Positions 7,785 to 32,455 of a stretch of 37,591 nucleotides of DNA are shown in pieces (within the stretch, counting starts at the first letter, position 1; the number at the start of each line of letters is the position of its first letter). Origin of the DNA: Catenulispora sp. EB89 (lineage in GTDB: Bacteria > Actinomycetota > Actinomycetes > Streptomycetales > Catenulisporaceae). The DNA is taken from contig NZ_JBGCCU010000049.1 in NCBI RefSeq assembly GCF_041261445.1, forward strand, positions 1 to 37,591, read 5' to 3'. The translations under genes and the position numbers were made by a program. The notes below the pieces were generated by a model, which saw nothing but the letters and a program-made list of their open reading frames with translations, ran no database searches and was not told where the DNA came from.

Positions 7785-9332
7785 ATGTCGATGACTGAAA
7801 GCTCAGAAAACGCCGCTTGGAGCGAAGCGGACGCCGCGGACGCCGCGCAGTTGCGCGCGATCGGCTACGAACCAGTGTTGTCCCGCAAGATGTCCGGATT
7901 CGGCAACTTCGCGATCAGCTTCTCCATCATCTCCATCCTGTCCGGCTGTATGACCCTGTTCGGCTTCGGCATGGCCACCGGCGGCCCGGCCGTCATGGTC
8001 TGGGGCTGGATCGGCGTCACCCTCGCCGTTCTGCTCATCGGCCTGAGCCTGGCCGAGGTCACCAGCGTCTACCCGACTTCCGGGGCGCTGTTCTTCATGG
8101 CCCACCGCCTCGGCGGCAAGGGCTGGGGCTGGATCACCGGCTGGCTGAACATGCTCGGCCTGTTCGGCGTCATAGCCGGCATCGACTACGGCGCCGCGGA
8201 GTTCATCGGCGCCTTCACCGGTATGGCGTTCGGCTGGACGCCGGACAAGTACGGGCTGATCGCCATCTTCGCCGGCGTGCTGCTGCTGCACGGTGTGCTG
8301 AACACCTTCGGCGTGCGGGTGCTGGACCTGTTCAACCGGGTCAGCGTCTGGTGGCACCTGCTGGGCGTGGCGTTCATCGTGGCGGTGCTGTTCCTCGTCC
8401 CGGCCCACCACCAGAGCGCCAGCTTCGTGTTCACGCACTACGCGAACGCCACCGGCTTCAAGAGCGCGATCTACGTCAGCGCCATCGGCCTGCTGCTCAC
8501 CGGCTACACCCTGACCGGCTACGACGCCTCGGCGCACATGTCCGAGGAGACCTCCCAGGCCTCGACGCTGGCGCCGAAGGGCATCGTCCGGTCCATCTGG
8601 GTCTCCGGTATCGCCGGCCTGGTCCTGATCGTCGCCTTCCTGTTCTCCATCCAGGGCGGCTCCGACCAGTACGCCACCGAGTCGGCCGGCTCCGGCTACG
8701 GCGGCGCGGTGACGGCACCGTCGCTGATCATGATCGACGCCCTCGGCCAGCACTGGGCCGAGATCCTGACCCTGGTCATCATCGTCGCGCAGCTGTGCTG
8801 CGGCCTGGCCGCCATCGGCTCCGCCGCGCGCATGGTCTTCGCCTTCTCCCGGGACGGCGCCCTGCCCGGCTCGCCGACCTGGCGCAAGGTCAACCGCTCG
8901 GCGGTCCCGACCAACGCCATGTGGCTCGTGGTCGTGGTGGCGTTCCTGCTGACGTTGCCCTCGCTGTGGACGATCCAGGCCTACGGCGCGGTGACGGCCA
9001 TCGCCTCGATCGGCTTGGCCCCGGCGTACGTCATCCCCGGGTTCCTGCGTGCCAGGCAGGGCAAGAACTTCAAGAAGGGCGCCTGGAACCTGGGCAAGTG
9101 GGGTCCGCTGGTCGGCTACACCGCCTCGGTGTGGGTGGTGATCGAGGTCGTGCTGTTCTGCCTGCCCCAGGCCTCGCCCATCACCGCGCTCACGTTCAAC
9201 TACGCGCCGATCGCGCTGGTCGGAGCACTGCTCCTGTCCGGGATCTGGTGGCTGGCCCGCGGCCGGGCCAGTTACGCGCCGCCGGCCGGCGCGGTGGAGG
9301 CCGAGCAGTTCGCGGACCTGGACGTCATCTGA
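7785..9332 (+). CDS. APC-superfamily amino acid permease
   Basis: A 515-residue integral membrane transporter of the amino acid-polyamine-organocation superfamily, closest in style to the amino acid/choline (GABA permease-like) group. After a 30-residue acidic cytoplasmic N-terminus the consensus SRKMSGFGNFAISFS leads into the first helix. The sequence contains 12 to 13 hydrophobic segments. LTGYDASAHMSEET near residues 240-255 is the conserved cytoplasmic signature of this group. The start is ATG at 7785 (or the second ATG at 7791); the ribosome-binding site is weak. The substrate is not identifiable; GABA, another amino acid or a polyamine are all possible. The leader contains repeated GCACCATC motifs and the gene ends in a strong terminator. 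Confidence 0.92.
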   Translation: MSMTESSENAAWSEADAADAAQLRAIGYEPVLSRKMSGFGNFAISFSIISILSGCMTLFGFGMATGGPAVMVWGWIGVTLAVLLIGLSLAEVTSVYPTSGALFFMAHRLGGKGWGWITGWLNMLGLFGVIAGIDYGAAEFIGAFTGMAFGWTPDKYGLIAIFAGVLLLHGVLNTFGVRVLDLFNRVSVWWHLLGVAFIVAVLFLVPAHHQSASFVFTHYANATGFKSAIYVSAIGLLLTGYTLTGYDASAHMSEETSQASTLAPKGIVRSIWVSGIAGLVLIVAFLFSIQGGSDQYATESAGSGYGGAVTAPSLIMIDALGQHWAEILTLVIIVAQLCCGLAAIGSAARMVFAFSRDGALPGSPTWRKVNRSAVPTNAMWLVVVVAFLLTLPSLWTIQAYGAVTAIASIGLAPAYVIPGFLRARQGKNFKKGAWNLGKWGPLVGYTASVWVVIEVVLFCLPQASPITALTFNYAPIALVGALLLSGIWWLARGRASYAPPAGAVEAEQFADLDVI

Positions 9333-9370
9333 GGTCTGATTCGCTGCACCTTGCTCGTCGGCACCATGTG

Positions 9371-9402
9371 GCGCGCCCCGGTTTCCGGGGCGCGCTTGCT
9401 TT
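9371..9402 (+). terminator. Rho-independent terminator
   Basis: An 11-bp perfect stem (9371-9381 with 9385-9395), a TTT loop and a T-rich tail TTGCTTT. It ends the permease transcript and separates it from the convergent DUF4239 gene, which stops at 9419. Confidence 0.85.
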
Positions 9403-9418
9403 GCCCCTATTGCCGATC

Positions 9419-10177
9419 TCAGCGTGGAGTCGGCAGTCGGGCGAGGAACACCTGGAACGCCGTGGGATCGACCTTCATGGTCCCGGAGTACGGGTAACTC
9501 ATCTCCCTGACGACAACTAGCGACACCACCACCAATGCCGCCAGCGTCATCACCATCACGGTGTGTGCGAAGGAACTGGACAGGCCGAACAGGAACGTGA
9601 AGGCGATCGTCACCAGCGCGCTGCCGATGAGGATCGCCCACAGCAACGGTGGCAGCGACTCCTCGGTCTGGTTCAGGCGCTCTCTTCGCTGCTCGGCCAT
9701 CGACTCCACATGCGTGAGCGCGTGGTCGTAGAGCACCTGCTGCGAGATGTCGGTCGGATGGAAGGCGAACACGCTGTCCCGGATCTGGTAGACCAGATTC
9801 GTGGCCTTCGGGCTGGTCTCGTGCTTGGCCAGCAGCGGCCACTCGTCGTCGATGACGGTGTGCGCGTAATCCAGCGTCTCGTGCTCCAACTGCGAACCCA
9901 GCGGCAGCGGCATCTGACGGGAGATCCAGTAGATGCCCGCGAGCTCGTTGGCTTCCTTGAACGTGGTCTGGTGCGCGGTGTCGTTGTTCGTCCACAGCGC
10001 CACCACGACGAACGCCAGCGGCACCGCGAACACCACGGAGACCGTGGCGAAGATGAAGCCGGCGACGTCGTTGTGCGGCTCGCGCCGGTGGTGCGGGATG
10101 AAGCGCTCGAACAGGCGCAGGGTGATGAAGGTCAGGATGAGGACGGCGACGATGATGCCGTAGTCCTTGGCGGTCAT
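9419..10177 (-). CDS. DUF4239 domain membrane protein
   Basis: A 252-residue integral membrane protein of the DUF4239 family, whose function is unknown. The layout is characteristic: two N-terminal helices (about 6-24 and 40-62), a soluble segment of about 110 residues (ANELAGIYW, then YAHTVIDDEWPLL), and two C-terminal helices (about 182-203 and 206-226). The soluble part faces one side as a helical domain. GGGAGG lies 5 bases before the ATG, fixing the start. Its upstream region is the 341-bp palindrome array, and beyond that is the end of the encapsulin operon on the same strand. Whether it is transcribed with that operon depends on whether RNA polymerase passes the array. Confidence 0.88.
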   Translation of the reverse strand: MTAKDYGIIVAVLILTFITLRLFERFIPHHRREPHNDVAGFIFATVSVVFAVPLAFVVVALWTNNDTAHQTTFKEANELAGIYWISRQMPLPLGSQLEHETLDYAHTVIDDEWPLLAKHETSPKATNLVYQIRDSVFAFHPTDISQQVLYDHALTHVESMAEQRRERLNQTEESLPPLLWAILIGSALVTIAFTFLFGLSSSFAHTVMVMTLAALVVVSLVVVREMSYPYSGTMKVDPTAFQVFLARLPTPR

Positions 10178-10280
10178 GACGACCTCCCGGTGCGGTTCTT
10201 GTGCGGTGTGGTGCTTGTGCGATGCGGTGCTGTGCGGGTGGTGCTGGGGTGGCGCCGTTCTTCGGGGGCTGCCTCGGCCA

Positions 10281-10621
10281 CGAGGTACCTCGATGCCGAT
10301 ATACCTCGGAGTCGAGGTATATCGAATCGAGGTTCCTCCGGGGCAGCTCGGTCGCGAGATACCTCGACGCCGATATACCTCGGCCGCGAGGTATATCGAA
10401 TCGAGGCTTCTCCGGGGCAGCTCGGCCGCGTGGTACCTCGCCGATATACCTCGGGATCGAGGTATATCGAAACGAGGTTCCTCCTCCAGGGCAGCTCAGC
10501 CGCGATGCACCTCGACGCCGATATACCTCGGAGTCGAGGTATATCGAAACGATGTACCTCGAAGCGATATACCTCGCGACCGAGGTACCTCGGGTTCGAT
10601 GTACCTCGGTCGCGAGGTACC
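10281..10621. repeat. Array of 74-bp units with perfect long palindromes
   Basis: Four units begin with a near-palindromic 12-mer (consensus CGAGGTACCTCG) at 10281, 10355, 10429 and 10503, exactly 74 bases apart, followed by a degenerate fifth unit to 10621. Each full unit contains CGATATACCTCG, four variable bases, then CGAGGTATATCG: arms 10297/10313, 10371/10387, 10442/10458 and 10519/10535. All eight arms are identical while the tetraloops differ (GAGT, GCCG, GGAT, GAGT). A third conserved block, GGGCAGCTC, closes each unit. The last part adds single half-sites at 10550, 10565, 10581 and 10597. The array fills the gap between the cargo prenyltransferase stop and the DUF4239 start. It is not a CRISPR array because there are no unique spacers. 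The palindromes shift reading frame between units, so it is not coding. Confidence 0.9.
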
Positions 10622-10660
10622 AGGTGGTTGGTGGTCGCGGTCTGCGGTTGCGCTGTCGTC

Positions 10661-11890
10661 CTAACTCGTCCGCCGCGTGATCAGCTCGGCGATCGCGTGC
10701 AGATCATGCACCGCCGCCTGCTCGACCCCCGGCGCCCGCCGCAGGTGCGCGTGCGCCGTCGCGATCCGCGCCGTGGCCTCCGTCGCGGCCCACGCCCTGC
10801 CTCCGGCGCGCTCCACGGCCTCGGTCGCCCGCCGCACCTCGTGCTCGGTGAAGTCCCGTCCGAGCGCGTACAACCGCGCCAGCTCCCCGGCCGCGGCCGA
10901 CCGCGCCGACAACGCGGCCACCACCGGCAGCGACTTCTTCCGTGCACTGAGATCCGAGCCCACCGGCTTCCCGGTGACCGCCGGATCGCCCCAAATGCCG
11001 AGCAGGTCGTCGGTCAGCTGGAACGCCATCCCGATCTCCCGCCCGAACAGGTCCAGCGCGGCCACGGCCAGCGGATCGGCCCGTACCGCCAGTGCCCCGA
11101 GCGCGCACGCGCAACCGAGCAGCGCCCCGGTCTTCTTGCCGGCCATCGTCAGGCACTCGTCGAGCGTCACGTCGTCGCGCTCCTCGAAGGCACAGTCCTC
11201 GAACTGGCCGTCGCAGATCTCGATGACGCACTCCGCCAGCCGGCTCGCCGCCTCGCCCCCGACCAGGCGCAGCGCCAGCGCCAGCATCGCGTCGCCGGCC
11301 AGGATCGCGTTCTCGGCACCGAACACGGTCCAGGCGGTCGGGCGGTGCCGGCGGGTGTGGTCGCGGTCTATGACGTCGTCGTGCAGGAGGGTGAAGTTGT
11401 GGGCCAGCTCGATGGCGGCGGCCGAGGCCAGGACCGTCGGATCGGTGGCCGCCGCGAGGCCGCTGCCGACGCCGTTGCCCACGCCACCGCCCGCAACGCC
11501 CGCAACGCCCCCGACGCCCCCGACGGCCGAGGCGGCAGTGGCGGCGGCCAACACCAGCCCCGGCCGCAGCAGCTTGCCCCCGATACCGCCGAGAGCGGCA
11601 CCGTCGGCGTCCTCCCACCCGAGGTGGTACGCCGCGATCGAACGCAGCCGCCCCGGCAGCGTGTCGACAGCCGCGCGCAACACCGGCTCGACGGCCTCCC
11701 GCGTCCGCCGCAACGTCGCCTCGGCCGTCCGGCCCGCGTCGACCATCGTGTTCGCATCGATCGTCCTCGCGCGTCGCGCCGGATCGTCGCCTATATCAGG
11801 CTGCGAAGACTCCTCCGCCGTCTGCCCGGCCCCGGCCGGCCCGCCGCCCCCGACCGGCCAGGCCGTCCCGGCCGCCAGCGGCTCAGCCAC
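10661..11890 (-). CDS. Polyprenyl synthetase, family 2 encapsulin cargo
   Basis: Trans-isoprenyl diphosphate synthase fold: condenses isopentenyl diphosphate with an allylic diphosphate. Of 409 residues, about 1-60 are a disordered Pro/Gly/Ala-rich extension, as found in family 2 encapsulin cargo proteins, where such extensions mediate loading. The enzyme part keeps GGKLLRP (Lys106, Arg109), the first Asp-rich motif DDVID at 171-175, GKKTG at 251-255 and the second Asp-rich motif from Asp294 Asp295 to Asp302. An odd Gly/Val/Ala-rich stretch (about 118-148) is inserted before the first active-site helix. The GTG start overlaps the shell gene by 8 bases, implying translational coupling. Prenyl chain length cannot be deduced. 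Cargo identity rests on family knowledge plus the overlap. Confidence 0.9.
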
Positions 11891-13334
11891 GGGGTCGCGC
11901 GATCTCGACGTTCTCCAGCACGCCGAGCGCGTCCGGCACCAGCACCGCCGCCGAGTAGTACGCGCTCACCAGATAAGAGGTGATGGCCTTCTCGTCGACG
12001 CCCATGAACCGCACCGACAATCCCGGCTGGTACTCGTCCGGGAGCCCGGTCTGATGCAGCCCGACCACGCCTTGCTCGGCCTCGCCGACCCGCAGCGCCA
12101 GGATCGAGGTGGTGTGGCCGTCCACCACCGGGATCTTCGGCACCGGCAGCACCGGCACGCCGCGCCAGGACGGCACCTGCGTCCCCAGCAGGTCCACGGT
12201 CCCCGGGTAGATCCCGCGCTTGGTGCACTCCCGGCCGAACGCGGCGATCGCCTTCGGGTGCGCCAGCAGGAAGTTGGTGTCGCGGCGCAGCGAGAGCAGC
12301 TCGTCCAGGTCGTCCGGGGTCGGCGGCCCGGAGTGGGTGTGCACGCGCTGCTCGAAGTCGGCGTTGTGCAGCAACCCGAAGCTGCGGTTGTTGACCAGCT
12401 CGTCCTCCTGCCGCTCGCGCACCGCCTCGACGGTCAGCCGCAGCTGCTGGTCCAGCTGGCTCATCGGCTTGTTGTAGAGGTCTGCGACACGGGTGTGGAT
12501 CCGCAGCACGGTCTGCGCCACCGACAGCTCGTACTCGCGCGGCTTGAGTTCGTAGTCGGCGAACGTGCCCGGCAGCTCGGCCTCGCCCTCGTGCCCGGCG
12601 GCCAGCGCGATCTCGGCCTCGCCGTGCGCGTTCTGCGCCTTGGCGCGGGTGGTGCGGTGCGCGGCCAGGTGCGACCGCAGCGTCTGCGACCGGTCGATCA
12701 GGGCCCTGATCTCCGAGGCCGGCACGGACAGCGCGATGACCGGGGTCACGGCGCGCGCCGTGGTCTTCCAACGCGGCGCGTGGCCGTTCGTCGCGGCACC
12801 GCCGGAGGCCGTGGTGTGGAACACCTCGTCGCCCAGGTGGTCGCCGTCGGCGAGGTGGCCGTGCACGGCATGGTCGCCGTACTTGCCCTGGCCGGCCAGG
12901 TCCACCTTGCCGTGCGCGATCAGCCACAGGGTGTCCACCGGCGTCCCGGCCTCGGCCAGCGTCTCCCCGGCCCGGAACTCGCGGGCCGCGAACCGCGCGG
13001 CCAGTTCGGTCAGCAACGCCTCGTCGGCGAAGCCGCGCAGCGGCGGCAGCTCGGTCAGGGTCGGGGCCAGCACCGTCACGTCATCGTCGCCGGCCTGGCT
13101 GAAGGCCACCCGGCCGCGCCCGACGGCGTGGCTCAGGCGGCGGTTCACGCGGTAGGCGCCGCCGGAGGCCTCGACCCACGGCAGGACGCGCAAAAGCCAG
13201 CGTGAAGTGATGCCTTGCATCTGTGGCGGCGTCTTGGTCGTGGTGGCCAGGTTCCGCGCCGCCGCGGTGTCCAGACTCAGTTGACCGCCCTCTGCAGCGG
13301 ACTCGGGTGCCGCCGCGCTCTGATCGACCGTCAT
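11883..13334 (-). CDS. Family 2B encapsulin shell protein with cyclic-nucleotide-binding-like domain
   Basis: Shell subunit of an encapsulin nanocompartment (HK97 phage capsid fold), 483 residues. Order: disordered N-arm (1-35), conserved [20 protein letters not shown] (37-56), a cNMP-binding-like jelly roll inserted at about 95-215 ([47 protein letters not shown]), then the HK97 core from about 255 ([28 protein letters not shown]) to the C-terminus ([40 protein letters not shown] in pieces). The insert defines family 2B. The start is ATG at 13334 because GGAGGGGG lies 4 bases upstream. It overlaps its cargo prenyltransferase, the standard arrangement for this group. Ligand binding by the insert is unproven here. 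Expected product: a cytosolic shell holding the prenyltransferase. Confidence 0.93.
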
Positions 13335-13399
13335 CGTTCCCCCTCCAAAGCTCATGGATGCTCTCGCCCTCTCATCGTGGGACCGATGTCGGGGTCGGT

Positions 13400-13405
13400 C
13401 TATTA
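13400..13405 (-). promoter_or_regulatory. Candidate -10 element for the encapsulin operon
   Basis: TAATAG on the minus strand, about 65 bases before the shell start codon, in the 163-bp divergent region shared with the hydroxyproline operon. No good -35 is present at 17 bases, so the call is tentative. Confidence 0.3.
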
Positions 13406-13482
13406 CCGCAATGGGTGACAAACGCAGGACGATTCACGAGTGGTCGCGCATTTCCAGGCTGCTGGCGGCTAGCCGGAGCATG

Positions 13483-13491
13483 TGACATAGT
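13483..13491 (+). promoter_or_regulatory. Candidate extended -10, leaderless hydroxyproline operon
   Basis: TGACATAGT (extended -10, core CATAGT at 13486-13491) ends 6 bases before the GTG start of the first dehydrogenase gene, the spacing expected when transcription begins at the start codon. There is no Shine-Dalgarno before this GTG, which agrees with a leaderless message. Confidence 0.45.
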
Positions 13492-13497
13492 ACTGGC

Positions 13498-14712
13498 GTG
13501 AGCCCAGCCGCGAGTGGATCCCCGACGCCCGACGTCGTCGTGATCGGCGCCGGCATGATCGGCGCCGCCTGCGCGTACTACGCGGCGCGCGCCGGCTTCG
13601 CGGTCACCGTCCTCGACAGCGGCCCGGTCGCCGGCGGCACCTCCGGCGCGGGCGAGGGGAACCTGCTGGTCTCGGACAAGGAACCGGGGCCGGAGCTGGA
13701 CCTGGCGATGCGCTCGCAGGAGCTGTGGCGGACTCTGGCCGCCGAGGACGACGGCGCGTTCGGCACCTTCGGCGCGAGCTTCGAGTACGAGGCCAAGGGT
13801 GGCCTGGTCGTCGCCTTCACGGCAGCCGATTTCGAGGCGCTGCAAGGCTTTGCGGCCACGCAGTTAGCTTCGGGCGTAGTTGCCGAGCACGTGCCCGGCG
13901 ACCACTTAGCCGAATACGAGCCCTACATCGCCCCGGGCCTGGCCGGCGGCTTCTGGTATCCGCAGGACGCGCAGGTGATGCCCGCGCTGGCCACGGCCCG
14001 ACTGCTGAAGGCCTCGGGCGCGCGGCTACGTCTGGGTAGTGCGGTGACGGGGCTGTCGGTGTCGTCCGGCGGTGCGGTGCGCGGGGTGCGCACGACGTCG
14101 GGGGAGATCCCGGCGCGCTTCGTGGTGAACGCCGCCGGTTTCGGCGCGTCCGCGATCGCGGCGATGGCCGGCTCGACGCTGCCGGTTCAGCCGCGGCGTG
14201 GGTTCGTACTGGTGACCGAGCCGCTGCCGGCGATGGTGCGGCACAAGGTGTACTCGGCCGCGTACGTCGCCGACGTTTCGAGTTCTGATGCGGCGTTGCA
14301 GTCCTCCGCGGTCGTCGAGGGGACGCCGTCGGGCCCGGTGCTGATCGGCGCGAGCCGCGAGCGCGTCGGACTGGACCGCACGCCCTCGTACGAGGCGCTG
14401 GGACGGCTGGCGGCTCAGGGGGCTGAGTTGTTCCCGTTCCTGGCCGACGTGAAGGTGCAGCGGTACTACTGCGGGTTCCGGCCCTACCTGCCGGACCACC
14501 TGCCCGCGATCGGCCCGGACGCCACCGTCTCAGGACTCTTCCACGCCTGCGGCCACGAGGGCGCCGGCATCGGCCTGGCCCCGGCGACCGGAGAGCTGAT
14601 CGCGGCGCTGCTGGCGGAGGCCGAGCCGGCGGTCGCGGCGGAGCCGTTCAACCCCGCGCGCTTCACACACTCTGGCGACGTGACCGACGGACACCGGGAG
14701 GACGCACAGTGA
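13498..14712 (+). CDS. FAD-dependent oxidoreductase, D-hydroxyproline dehydrogenase catalytic subunit
   Basis: DadA/glycine oxidase-fold flavoenzyme, 404 residues. The dinucleotide-binding motif IGAGMIG is at about 16-22, followed by the strand ending in the ribose-binding Asp (VTVLDSG). GTSGAGEGNLL and FWYPQDAQVMPALATARLL are typical of the beta subunit of heteromeric D-hydroxyproline or opine dehydrogenases, and the C-terminal HACGHEGAGIGLAPATGELIA loop closes the FAD site. In the expected complex it oxidises cis-4-hydroxy-D-proline to pyrroline-4-hydroxy-2-carboxylate and passes electrons to the two partner subunits downstream. The stop overlaps the next start as GTGA. Function is assigned mainly from the neighbouring epimerase and deaminase; alone it could be any D-amino-acid or opine dehydrogenase. 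Confidence 0.88.
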   Translation: MSPAASGSPTPDVVVIGAGMIGAACAYYAARAGFAVTVLDSGPVAGGTSGAGEGNLLVSDKEPGPELDLAMRSQELWRTLAAEDDGAFGTFGASFEYEAKGGLVVAFTAADFEALQGFAATQLASGVVAEHVPGDHLAEYEPYIAPGLAGGFWYPQDAQVMPALATARLLKASGARLRLGSAVTGLSVSSGGAVRGVRTTSGEIPARFVVNAAGFGASAIAAMAGSTLPVQPRRGFVLVTEPLPAMVRHKVYSAAYVADVSSSDAALQSSAVVEGTPSGPVLIGASRERVGLDRTPSYEALGRLAAQGAELFPFLADVKVQRYYCGFRPYLPDHLPAIGPDATVSGLFHACGHEGAGIGLAPATGELIAALLAEAEPAVAAEPFNPARFTHSGDVTDGHREDAQ

Positions 14713-15032: not shown

Positions 15033-17259
15033 GCGCGACCTCGATCCTGCGGCCCTCGATCCCGCCGCGCTAGATCCGGCTGCCCTCGACCCCGCAGCCG
15101 TTGATCCTGCGTTCCTCGATCCTGCTGTCCCCGACCCCGTGGCCCTCGATCCTGCCGCCCTTGATCCCGCAGCCCTTGACCCCGCCGCCCCCGAGGACGT
15201 CAGCCTCGGCGACCCCGGCCACCTCGGCACCTTCGACCTGGCCGTCATCGGCGCCGGCCCGGCCGGCATGGCAGCCGCCGCGACTGCGGCCGAGCACGGA
15301 CTGCGCGTCGCCCTGATCGACGCCGGCCGCCAACTAGGCGGCCAGTACTTCCGCCACCCGGCCCCCGGCCTGACCGCCCCGTGGCTGCCGAAGCTCTACC
15401 ACGGCTGGCAGCAGTTCGAGCAGCTGGTGACGCGCGTGGAGACGGCCAGCGGCATCGAAGTCCTGTTCGGCCACCAGGTGTGGGCGATCGACCGCCTCAC
15501 CGACCCCGGATTCAGGGTCCTGACAGACCGCGGCCCGATCGAGGCCCCCTACGTGATCCTGGCGACCGGCGCCTACGAGCGCGTGGTCCCCTTCCCCGGC
15601 TGGGACCTCCCCGGCGTCTTCACCGCCGGCGGCGCCCAGGCCCTCCTCAAAGGCAACCTGGTCCTGCCCGGCCGCCGCGTGGTCGTCGCCGGCACCGGCC
15701 CCCTGCTCCTGCCGGTGGCCACCGGCCTGGCCACAGCCGGCGCCAAAGTCCTGGGCCTGTACGAAGCGAACAACATCCGCGGCTACGCCAAGAACCCCCT
15801 GCCGCTGATCACCAACCCCACCAAGCTCACCGAAGGCCTCGACTACGCCCGCCAACTCACCCGGGCCCGCATCACCGTCCACACCGGCCGCATGATCATC
15901 GAAGCCCAAGGCACCGATACCCTCGAAGCGGTGGTAGCCGCCCGCCCCGACGGCACCGACCCCCAGCACATCCCCTGCGACACCCTCGCGATCGGCTACG
16001 GCCTAGCCCCCCAAATCGACCTGGCCCTCACCCTCGGCGCAGCCCCCACCCACCTCACCGACGGCACCATCGCCCTCCGCGTGAACACCACCCAGCGCAC
16101 CACCATCCCCGGCCTCTACGCCGCCGGCGAGACCGCCGGCGTCGCCGGCGCCGAAACCGCCCTCCTAGAAGGCGAGATCGCCGGCCTCGCCGTGGCACAG
16201 GCCGCGGCGCGCGCACGACGCGTAGCCGACAGGGCGGCGGGGCTGAGCGTGGACGGCTCCGAGGCGACACCGGGCACTGATACGCCCTCCGCAGCCGAGA
16301 CGACTCCCGGACCGGCTGCTCCGCCGAGCCCCAGCAGCGATGCCGAACCGTCGCGCGCCGAACCCAAACCCGCCGGCCCGATTGCGAGCCGCATGCTCGG
16401 AAGCGCCCGCGCCCAGCTGACTCGCCGCGTGTCGCCGAACCCTGACACGTCAGCGACGGCTGCCAGCAACCCGCCTGCCGCTACCGGCCTGCCCACCGCT
16501 GGCCTGCGCGCTGCCGCTGCCGATCCGCCTGCCGCTACCGGCCTGCCCGCCGCTGGCCTGCGCGCTGCCACCGGTCCACCTGCCGCTACCGGCCTGCCCG
16601 CCGCCGGCCTGCGCGCTGCCGCCAACGCGCCCGCCGAGCCCAAGCCCGCCGGCGGCCCGCTCACCAGTGCCCGCGCTCGGTTCTCCCGTCGCTCCTCATC
16701 GAGCCCTGAGACTGCCGCCGCCTCCTCCAGCCTGCCTGTCGAAGCCAAACCCGCCCGCGGCGGCCCGCTCTCCGCAGCCCGAGCCCGCGTCGCACGCCGC
16801 AACAGCCCCGCCCCGGAGGCCCCGGCTGCCGAGTCGACCACCGCGACCCCACCCCCGAACCTCCCCACCCTCCTCCGTCGCCGGGCCCGCCAACGCGCCC
16901 TCGCCGACCTCCTCCGTGCCCGCCACCCGATCCCGGCCGCTTGGCGCGCGCACCTGGCCGACGACACCGTCGTCTGCCGCTGCGAGGAGGTGACCGCCTC
17001 CGCCATCACCGAGGCGGTCACCGACCTCGGCGCCGGCGACGCCCGGACCGTCAAGCTCCTCACCCGCGCCGGCATGGGCTGGTGCCAGGGCCGCGTGTGC
17101 GGCTACGCCGTCGCCTGCCTGGCCCGCGCCGACGGGGGTGCCGACGCCGCCGACCCCGCATCCCCCTCCGCCACCGACCTCCTCGCCGCCGCGAAGCGCC
17201 CCCTGGCGCGTCCCGTCCCGCTCGGCGTCCTGGCCGAGCAAGACCGAAGGAACAAGTAG
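15019..17259 (+). CDS. FAD/NAD-binding D-hydroxyproline dehydrogenase subunit with repeat-expanded linkers
   Basis: Large (alpha, HcnB/OoxA-like) subunit of the three-part dehydrogenase; moves electrons between flavins and iron-sulfur clusters. Counting from ATG 15019 gives 746 residues, far above the usual 450-500. Residues about 8-58 are an LDPAA pentapeptide repeat. The pyridine-nucleotide-disulfide-reductase-type domain follows: GAGPAG at 78-83, GGQYFRHP, ATGAYERVVPFPGW, then AGETAGVAGAE. A low-complexity Pro/Ala/Ser linker of about 200 residues (roughly 405-615), with three copies of a PPAATGLPAAGLRAA unit, precedes a C-terminal BFD-like [2Fe-2S] domain with Cys653, Cys655, Cys689 and Cys694. 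Start could also be ATG 15025; both overlap the preceding gene. Function follows from the operon. Confidence 0.88.
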   Translation: MSMSERDLDPAALDPAALDPAALDPAAVDPAFLDPAVPDPVALDPAALDPAALDPAAPEDVSLGDPGHLGTFDLAVIGAGPAGMAAAATAAEHGLRVALIDAGRQLGGQYFRHPAPGLTAPWLPKLYHGWQQFEQLVTRVETASGIEVLFGHQVWAIDRLTDPGFRVLTDRGPIEAPYVILATGAYERVVPFPGWDLPGVFTAGGAQALLKGNLVLPGRRVVVAGTGPLLLPVATGLATAGAKVLGLYEANNIRGYAKNPLPLITNPTKLTEGLDYARQLTRARITVHTGRMIIEAQGTDTLEAVVAARPDGTDPQHIPCDTLAIGYGLAPQIDLALTLGAAPTHLTDGTIALRVNTTQRTTIPGLYAAGETAGVAGAETALLEGEIAGLAVAQAAARARRVADRAAGLSVDGSEATPGTDTPSAAETTPGPAAPPSPSSDAEPSRAEPKPAGPIASRMLGSARAQLTRRVSPNPDTSATAASNPPAATGLPTAGLRAAAADPPAATGLPAAGLRAATGPPAATGLPAAGLRAAANAPAEPKPAGGPLTSARARFSRRSSSSPETAAASSSLPVEAKPARGGPLSAARARVARRNSPAPEAPAAESTTATPPPNLPTLLRRRARQRALADLLRARHPIPAAWRAHLADDTVVCRCEEVTASAITEAVTDLGAGDARTVKLLTRAGMGWCQGRVCGYAVACLARADGGADAADPASPSATDLLAAAKRPLARPVPLGVLAEQDRRNK
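15043..15190 (+). repeat. 15-bp coding minisatellite (LDPAA repeat)
   Basis: About ten consecutive 15-base units of the type CTCGATCCTGCGGCC encode the LDPAA pentapeptide at the N-terminus of the large dehydrogenase subunit. Codons vary between units (GAT/GAC, CCT/CCC, GCC/GCA), so it is not a very recent expansion. Confidence 0.85.
16470..16625 (+). repeat. About 50-bp coding repeats in the linker
   Basis: Three in-frame near-copies, each beginning with a CCTGCCGCTACCGGCCTGCC-like block and encoding PPAATGLPAAGLRAA, differ mainly by small in-frame length changes between them. They lie in the disordered linker between the flavin domain and the iron-sulfur domain. Confidence 0.8.
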
Positions 17260-31229: not shown

Positions 31230-32341
31230 TAGTCACGCTCACGCTCAACCCGGCTCTGGACATCACGTATACGGTCCCTGCTTTGCTGCCGGGGACCACG
31301 CACCGGCCGCGGGTGCACGCTCAGGCCGGCGGCAAGGGAGTGAACGTCGCCCGGACCCTGCACGCCCTGGGCCGCGACACGGTCGCGGTCCTGCCGCTCG
31401 GCGGCTTCGACGGCGAAGCGGTGCGCGCGGAGCTGGCGGCGTCGGGGGTCCCGCACCACGTCATACCCATCGCCGGGGCGACTCGGCGGACGGTGACGGT
31501 CGTCGAGGAATCCGGGCTCGCGACCGGATTCAACGAGGCCGGGCCCGAGATCGGCGCCGACGAGTGGGCCGAGATATGCGCGGCGGTGGCTGTGCTCCTG
31601 GAAACCGCAGTGCTCGACGACGCGGCGGTGCTGGTGTTGTCGGGCAAGCTGCCGCGCGGGCTGGCCGACGACGCTTATGCCTCGTTGGTGGAACTGGCCG
31701 ACGGCTTCGGGGTCCCGACGATCCTGGACACCGAAGGCGCGCCGTTGTTGGCCGCCCTGTCGGCGGGGCCAGCGATCGTGAAGCCGAACGCGCATGAGTT
31801 GCTGGATGCCACAGGCTTGGCTGATCCCGGTTCCGCTGCGGGGGAGTTGCTGAAGCGCGGGGCCCGGGCGGTGGTTGCCTCCAGCGGACCTGACGGCCTC
31901 ACGGCTCTGACCGCCGACGGCACCTGGATCGCGAGGCCACCGCGGATTGAGGGCGGCAACCCCACTGGTGCGGGCGATGCCTCGGTCGCGGCGCTGGCCG
32001 TGGGGCTGGCAGACGGGCGCGCTTGGCCGGAGGTGCTGGCCGATGCGGTCGCGTTGTCGGCGGCGACTGTGCTCACGGACCGGGCCGGGATGTTCGATGC
32101 CGAGGCTTATCGCCGGTTCCGCTCCGAGATCACCGCTCAACATGAAGCCCGCAGTACGAGTACTAGTACGAGCGCGAGCACGAGCTCAAGCGCGAGCACG
32201 AGCCCAAGCGCGAGCTCAAGCACGAGCACGAGCACGAGCACGAGCCCAAGCGCGAGCTCAAGCACGAGCACGAGCACGAGCCCAAGCGCGAGCACGAGCA
32301 CAAGCACAAGCACAAGCACAAGCACAAGCACAAGGCCTTAG
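31226..32341 (+). CDS. PfkB-family phosphofructokinase/tagatose-6-phosphate kinase with S/T-repeat tail
   Basis: Ribokinase-fold sugar-phosphate kinase of the FruK/LacC/PfkB type. It starts at GTG 31226 (overlapping the ROK stop), beginning with VTLTLNPALDITY, the standard N-terminus. QAGGKGVNVARTL near 33-45 binds substrate, and NPTGAGDASVAALAVGL near 245-260 carries the catalytic Asp and anion hole. In this operon the expected reaction is tagatose-6-phosphate to tagatose-1,6-bisphosphate; 1-phosphofructokinase activity is the alternative. The folded enzyme ends near residue 310; a further 60 or so residues are an STSTSAS-type repeat ending in RP. This tail is encoded by a simple-sequence tract and is not part of the family. 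Confidence 0.88.
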   Translation: MIVTLTLNPALDITYTVPALLPGTTHRPRVHAQAGGKGVNVARTLHALGRDTVAVLPLGGFDGEAVRAELAASGVPHHVIPIAGATRRTVTVVEESGLATGFNEAGPEIGADEWAEICAAVAVLLETAVLDDAAVLVLSGKLPRGLADDAYASLVELADGFGVPTILDTEGAPLLAALSAGPAIVKPNAHELLDATGLADPGSAAGELLKRGARAVVASSGPDGLTALTADGTWIARPPRIEGGNPTGAGDASVAALAVGLADGRAWPEVLADAVALSAATVLTDRAGMFDAEAYRRFRSEITAQHEARSTSTSTSASTSSSASTSPSASSSTSTSTSTSPSASSSTSTSTSPSASTSTSTSTSTSTSTRP

Positions 32342-32455
32342 CCCGAGGCCGAGCTGAAGCCCGAGGGCCTAACCCGAAGCCGAGCCGAACCCCGAGGCCG
32401 AGCCGAAGCCCGAGCCCCTAACCCAAAGCCGAGCCCGAGCCCGAAGACCAAGGAC
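32150..32455 (+). repeat. Minisatellite running through the kinase stop codon
   Basis: From 32150 to 32335 the sequence is built of hexamers AGCACG/AGCGCG/AGCACA with interspersed CCAAGCGCGAGC units, encoding Ser/Thr/Ala/Pro repeats. After the TAG at 32339 a related purine-rich repeat (GAGGCCGAGC, GAAGCCCGAG types) continues for about 110 bases and stops only at the Shine-Dalgarno of the aldolase gene. Coding and non-coding parts thus form one repeat tract. Confidence 0.9.

Follow-up and report, generated by a model that had tools for sequence, protein, structure and literature searches.

REP and BIME repeats are palindromes that cluster in intergenic regions and can form strong hairpins, and decoy operator sites or arrays titrate a transcription factor by presenting many copies of its operator away from the regulated promoter. 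The array described here, from a Catenulispora genome (11.9 Mb, 70 contigs), resembles REP/BIME in its intergenic, clustered palindromes and their strong hairpin potential, but such arrays stand at only about 12 places, have no common ends, and consist of half-sites that match a regulator's promoter dyad. Decoy operator arrays are matched in the many putative operator copies distant from the regulated promoter; here, however, the copies are natural, chromosomal, spread over many loci and nearly species-specific, and titration is a putative role. Operators of PadR regulators are familiar elements, as are clusters of operators. Autoregulated operators of the PadR and LmrR type share with this system promoter inverted repeats, a divergent gene and a winged-helix regulator, but in this genome the sites also form extended lattices at loci other than the promoter. 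The array half-sites are (T)ACCTCG facing each other across 3 or 4 bp and do not show the ATGT/ACAT inverted repeats 8–10 nt apart that PMC5050560 gives as the PadR operator motif. The genes adjoining the array are of the kind described in PMC8346489, a family 2B encapsulin with a polyprenyl transferase cargo, but the array stands outside that system and is absent from six of the eight congeners that keep the adjoining cargo/DUF4239 gene pair. Searches of an open-licence literature library found no account of an autoregulator whose operator had been expanded into lattices at roughly twelve unrelated loci. From the sequence comparisons below, we consider it reasonably probable that the array is an operator cluster of the regulator PadR1, and probably also of its paralogue PadR2, that was dispersed and grew in tandem and likely acts as a sink or roadblock, with the encapsulin operon as a bystander.

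Layout of the array beside the encapsulin genes

The array beside the encapsulin genes is real, which partly confirms the observation made in an earlier, sequence-only reading of the window (the whole 37,591-nt stretch of DNA analyzed). As that reading held, it is intergenic, lying between the cargo stop codon (36 bp away) and the DUF4239 start (103 bp from the array end). The features are as follows.

9419–10177, minus strand: DUF4239/bestrophin-like membrane gene (PF14023, 224.6 bits)
10281–10624, unstranded: lattice of 19 half-site pairs, each 12 bp long (CGAKRTAYMTCG, ≥10/12 positions matching), mostly 16 or 15 bp apart; putative PadR1/PadR2 operator cluster
10297–10324, unstranded: 28-bp dyad 1, 4-bp spacer GAGT; putative PadR1-type operator
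10325–10327, unstranded: AAT, 3-bp spacer in a 15-bp step (12-mers at 10313 and 10328); PadR2-type spacing by comparison with PadR2 promoters
10371–10398, unstranded: 28-bp dyad 2, spacer GCCG; putative PadR1-type operator
10442–10469, unstranded: 28-bp dyad 3, spacer GGAT; putative PadR1-type operator
10470–10472: AAA, further 3-bp spacer
10519–10546, unstranded: 28-bp dyad 4, spacer GAGT; putative PadR1-type operator
10547–10549, unstranded: AAA, 3-bp spacer in a 15-bp step (12-mers at 10535 and 10550)
10550–10624, unstranded: lattice tail beyond the four 74-bp units, with 12-mers at 10550, 10565, 10581, 10597 and 10613 in 15/16-bp steps
10562–10564: AAG, further 3-bp spacer
10661–11746, minus strand: polyprenyl synthetase gene, the encapsulin cargo (PF00348, 179.3 bits); start uncertain, the open frame beginning at 11890
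11883–13334, minus strand: family 2B-like encapsulin shell gene with SrpI-like and cNMP-binding domains (PF19307, 457.2 bits; PF00027, 40.7 bits); start uncertain

The array at 10281–10624 is a lattice of the 12-bp near-palindrome CGAKRTAYMTCG. Tandem repeat finding (TRF) gives a period of 74 bp with 4.1 copies at 10257–10560, and four units of 74 bp had been proposed, but the real step is 16 bp (the 12-mer plus 4), in places 15, and the array continues to about 10624. The four perfect 28-bp dyads, CGATATACCTCG-N4-CGAGGTATATCG, are present as described, with starts at 10297, 10371, 10442 and 10519; their spacings, claimed as 74/74/74, measure 74, 71 and 77 bp, so that exact helical phasing fails and a strict 74-bp phasing is ruled out. 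All four dyads have perfect arms, as had been noted, but the loops, thought to differ, include two that are alike (GAGT, GCCG, GGAT, GAGT). A second palindrome, CGAGGTACCTCG, is exact at 10281 and 10581 only and degenerate in units 2–4. Allowing one mismatch, 11 PadR1-type dyads occur in 10265–10635. A search of the window for the 12-mer (up to two mismatches) gave 18 match rows, with two palindromic sites entered once per strand, whereas 100 shuffles averaged 1.62 rows and reached at most 6. Of these 18 rows, 17 fall inside the array. The proposal that the arms vary less than the remainder is true of this array, in which 6/180 core positions differ between units vs. 47/231 other positions. 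The array (60–63% GC) is AT-richer than the cargo side (70–78%), but about equal to the DUF4239 side (62–65%), so that its reported AT-richness holds in one direction.

Three further observations were made in the window. An Rfam match to RF02735 (Sernc350, a Saccharopolyspora antisense sRNA; 115.4 bits) lies opposite the encapsulin gene at 12787–13294 on the plus strand, and may reflect merely conserved coding sequence. A long 6-bp tandem repeat (ACGAGC/CGAGCC, about 29–45 copies) occupies 32156–32444. Tandem repeats of 15 bp (15039–15194) and 51 bp (16459–16636) lie in one long open reading frame that is FAD-dependent oxidoreductase-like by eye.

Promoter dyads of padR1 and its paralogues

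The motif has a conserved position in the promoter of padR1 (G000:C4:489381–489929), which encodes a genus-specific PadR-family regulator of 183 aa (protein L027:4382-4930:-) with PadR domain PF03551 (42.4 bits, cut-off 27). A PDB search with PadR1 returned 15 sequences at E up to 1, most of them named PadR or transcriptional regulator; the best match, 8jxk (59.5 bits), is named just "Conserved protein." Across the genus, the dyad TACCTCG-N4-CGAGGTA lies between padR1 and a divergent alpha/beta-hydrolase gene. Full-length PadR1 orthologues (74–100% identical) occur in eight of ten genus genomes, and, as in PadR operators, each has an inverted repeat in its own promoter, conserved in 8/8 orthologues: the dyad is centered 18.5 bp upstream of the start codon in all of them (seven with no mismatch, one with one), against a background of 5 matches (up to two mismatches) in 43,641 positions of other locus sequence. 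Additional dyads occur at about −38 to −222, and padR1 promoters in the genus carry two to eight PadR1-type dyads, partly at 16-bp steps; in C. pinisilvae (G008) and C. pinistramenti (G002), the upstream dyads already follow one another at 16-bp intervals.

The 28-bp pair pattern was found in 5 of 60 genomes searched (this one included), all Catenulispora, and in at least three GTDB-220 records, again all Catenulispora; that record list is incomplete, as it omits C. acidiphila, which carries the pattern. Among the ten genus genomes, with one mismatch allowed, all five distinct matches outside this genome, C. rubra and G005 lie in the padR1 promoter (one each in C. pinistramenti, C. acidiphila [G004] and G009, two in C. 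pinisilvae), and a reversed-pattern control gave none. No match at this threshold was obtained in G003 and G007, both of which have padR1; the pattern is longer than the promoter dyad.

A paralogue, PadR2 (G000:C19:180454–181002), is about 53% identical to PadR1. Its upstream region holds a dyad with a 3-bp spacer, TACCTCGAATCGAGGTA, or the ATT form of it, in four genomes. The PadR2-type 17-mer TACCTCGAWTCGAGGTA (up to one mismatch) occurs at five places in the ten genomes (control, none), four of them about 65–130 bp upstream of PadR2 genes and the fifth in an array of this genome. The 3-bp-spacer dyad was not found at the PadR2-like genes of G002 and G008 (61% identical to this strain's PadR2) or G006 (56%). 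In the arrays of this genome, the 15-bp steps contribute 17 spacers, namely ATT (6), AAT (4), GAT (2), TTT (2), AAA (2) and AAG (1), and those at 16-bp steps are mostly alternating purine–pyrimidine. Because the spacers at 15-bp steps are of the PadR2 kind, the arrays appear to combine the operator types of both PadR1 and PadR2. The earlier suggestion of a platform for a dimeric regulator would thus stand in kind, the motif being that of the conserved PadR promoter dyad and its 3-bp-spacer form apparently that of the paralogue.

PadR1 and PadR2 have in common a DG[TA]LYPAI recognition segment, where a third regulator, PadR3, has YGTLYPCLK. The PadR3 dyad, CGATGTATCG-N3-CGATACATCG, lies upstream of PadR3 genes (L107, L109, L110, L112) and contains ATGT…ACAT, as in the motif given in PMC5050560. 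It stays at one or two copies per genome in all ten Catenulispora genomes, so dispersal is particular to the PadR1/PadR2 motif.

Arrays across the genome and the genus

Twelve arrays, with 103 sites matching at least 10/12 positions, were found in this genome; of 91 adjacent 12-mer pairs within them, 63 are spaced at 16 bp and 17 at 15 bp. The commonest half-sites are CGAGGT (102), CGATAT (28), CGAGAT (21) and CGATGT (12). One array lies in the padR1 promoter, and the other 11 adjoin unrelated genes: MTHFR/GNAT; an IMS-domain polymerase; baeRF/DJ-1; MMPL/LacI; D-glutamate cyclase/MFS; MerR/TetR; L,D-transpeptidase; VWA/M3 peptidase; a metallo-beta-lactamase-fold gene with a look-alike beside it; a carB/pyrD-like pair (by eye); and the cargo/DUF4239 pair. 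A thirteenth, weak array lies at L118 4994–5040 (G000:C16:77593–77636), where convergent genes flank three copies of CTACCTCG stepped by 16 bp; it is left out of this count.

Because similar clusters stand at some twelve loci of this genome, the array is probably not special to encapsulin. The cargo/DUF4239 pair is present in eight of ten genus genomes, and the array is not conserved with it: the gap is 522 bp (printed segment) with a full array in this genome, and 209 bp with a short half-site set in C. rubra, while nothing recognizable as an array was found in the gaps (136–433 bp) of the other six Catenulispora genomes. The proposed link to encapsulin is unsupported in view both of the motif's recurrence at 11 further loci with unrelated neighbors and of the same intergenic region in relatives (full array in 1/8, short set in 1/8, none in 6/8), and on these grounds an encapsulin-specific element was rejected; the encapsulin operon is probably a bystander.

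Eight array loci of this genome were sought in congeners by their flanks. G004, G007 and G009 have no array in the 23 rows examined (the L029 flank was unmatched in G009 at the cut-off used). Isolated single sites appear in 4 of the 23 rows; three are a shared metF-locus site, present in all four genomes and scored as background because it is apparently inside the shared start of the next gene, and the fourth is in G009 at the L031 locus. Seven of the eight loci were found in C. rubra (the L028 flank was unmatched at the same cut-off), with three sites each at L029 and L036, one doubtful site at L031, and no sites above background at L026, L030, L032 and L035; small arrays occur there at three more loci (cargo, transpeptidase and carB-like). 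As arrays are absent at the same loci elsewhere, we place their gain in the lineage that unites this strain with C. rubra.

Catenulispora rubra (G001; one fragmented draft of 870 contigs, contamination 6) has few intact sites, in small or degenerate arrays only, although it keeps an intact dyad at C91. At its padR1 locus, PadR1 codons 1–145 and the whole promoter array are missing, and the hydrolase gene and the last 38 PadR1 codons remain; PadR2 lacks codons 1 to about 95 and its promoter. The DNA-binding halves of both paralogues (L117 5944–6130 and L093 1513–1791) are therefore lost, with different new neighbors at each. Its arrays may have shrunk after regulator loss or may never have grown, which two genomes cannot separate; expansion in this strain's own lineage explains the difference in array size equally well.

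In G005, CTAGGTA half-sites occur both in the padR1 promoter and in two dispersed arrays (L066, L116); either the arrays would derive from the promoter, or both would follow the same protein. The variant sites of G005 lie at L066 1358–1530, L116 4383–4426 and L051 1501–1521. Two contigs of G005 (C848, C16) terminate within the repeat or directly beside it; assembly from short reads may therefore fail at such repeats, and copy numbers taken from fragmented genomes may be underestimates.

Possible origins and roles of the arrays

The earlier interpretation of the array is partly supported, in the form of a regulator-binding cluster. The half-site would be (T)ACCTCG or a near variant, two of which facing each other across 4 bp would form a PadR1-type operator and, across 3 bp (AAT/ATT), a PadR2-type operator. 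The home cluster would be that in the padR1 promoter, with extra clusters at other intergenic places (11 here), reduced in C. rubra and, in this strain, probably enlarged by tandem duplication. PadR1 and PadR2 are predicted to bind the arrays as they would their own promoters. More tentatively, the approximately 100 sites might titrate the regulators, a sink that would sharpen or delay derepression, and bound lattices near gene 3′ ends might form a local roadblock as a side effect. The dispersal of arrays without common flanks is unaccounted for by this PadR-operator reading.

An alternative is a REP/MITE-type repeat, spread by a DNA mechanism, without function at its new sites and with only incidental PadR half-sites, an origin that we regard as unlikely. 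It is consistent with the unrelated neighbors, the appearance of the arrays in the lineage that includes this strain and C. rubra, the evident tandem duplication, and the occurrence of dispersed, multi-copy palindromes as 12 arrays that are all intergenic and never within genes. However, the printed arrays share, by eye, half-sites and steps only, with no common ends or flanks and no common full-length unit with defined ends, and their spacings match the promoter dyads of two regulators. In addition, core positions are less variable in four of five sets of duplicated units (24/468 core 12-mer positions differing vs. 76/451 other positions over the five sets; odds ratio 3.7, from pairs that are not independent and core positions chosen by their match to the motif); the array at L031 shows the opposite (5/60 vs. 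2/41).

A regulon variant of the PadR-operator reading, in which each array is a working operator through which PadR1/PadR2 control the neighboring gene (here DUF4239 or the encapsulin operon), is rather unlikely. The array ends ahead of the DUF4239 start at a distance of 103 bp, and a G005 array lies between MFS-like and isochorismatase-like genes (by eye), both of which would suit such operators. Against this, family searches around the arrays of this genome found no common functional theme among the neighbors, and six congeners with the same gene pair have no array. Placement also leans to gene 3′ ends, the array being nearer the stop than the start in seven of eight tandem gene gaps (p = 0.07, not significant; two cases are decided by ≤12 bp, and the upstream gene at L028 is an unverified open frame), and three arrays lie between convergent genes, unlike ordinary operators; this lean and the convergent gaps speak against a plain regulon.

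A stronger form of the sink proposal, which we likewise think unlikely, is that the arrays constitute one chromosome-wide PadR sink, in which the roughly 12 loci would hold most of the regulator, may bridge into a focus, and would need the regulators for their upkeep. If so, C. rubra would be a natural double knock-out with decaying lattices, and a natural operator array would have evolved as a bacterial titration device.

RNA hairpins had also been proposed for the array; as 3′-terminal structures that terminate or stabilize the cargo mRNA, we consider them improbable. They are physically possible, as the array lies on the cargo strand 36 bp past the cargo stop codon and its RNA folds at −221.5 kcal/mol (z = −13.0, with 0/100 shuffles equally stable). 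However, half-sites across the spacer show no excess of matches by permutation (inner, 26 vs. 21.7 expected, p = 0.15; outer, 23 vs. 21.8, p = 0.42), and within the 12-mer, matches between its halves fall below chance (23 vs. 43.6 expected). Without covariation, half-sites recognized independently by protein are a better fit than RNA hairpins under selection; the lack of half-site symmetry counts against the PadR-operator reading too. Moreover, no terminator-like site (GC-rich hairpin, then a T run) or sigma-70-like site was found in 9900–10900, where, with the T run required, just 0.2 terminators were expected by chance; a search of Rfam over the array (window 9000–14000) gave nothing at gathering score; and this motif also occurs as a conserved promoter element. 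An RNA element was rejected on covariation, the terminator scan and Rfam. Equally improbable is a different DNA-binding protein, for example a nucleoid or chromosome-organizing one, whose sites resemble PadR dyads by chance: the lattice form and the dozen or so chromosomal clusters would suit it, but congeners have the motif almost nowhere except in the padR1 promoter, which leaves too few places for a genome-wide organizer.

For encapsulin research, a false lead is removed, the array being no conserved element of encapsulin control. If the PadR1/PadR2 operator reading is right, the operator of an autoregulator has been multiplied at about a dozen unrelated loci in one genus, with the spacings of two paralogues, and these arrays would offer a natural test case for the evolution of decoy operator arrays, the origin and spread of lattices, and their decay after regulator loss.
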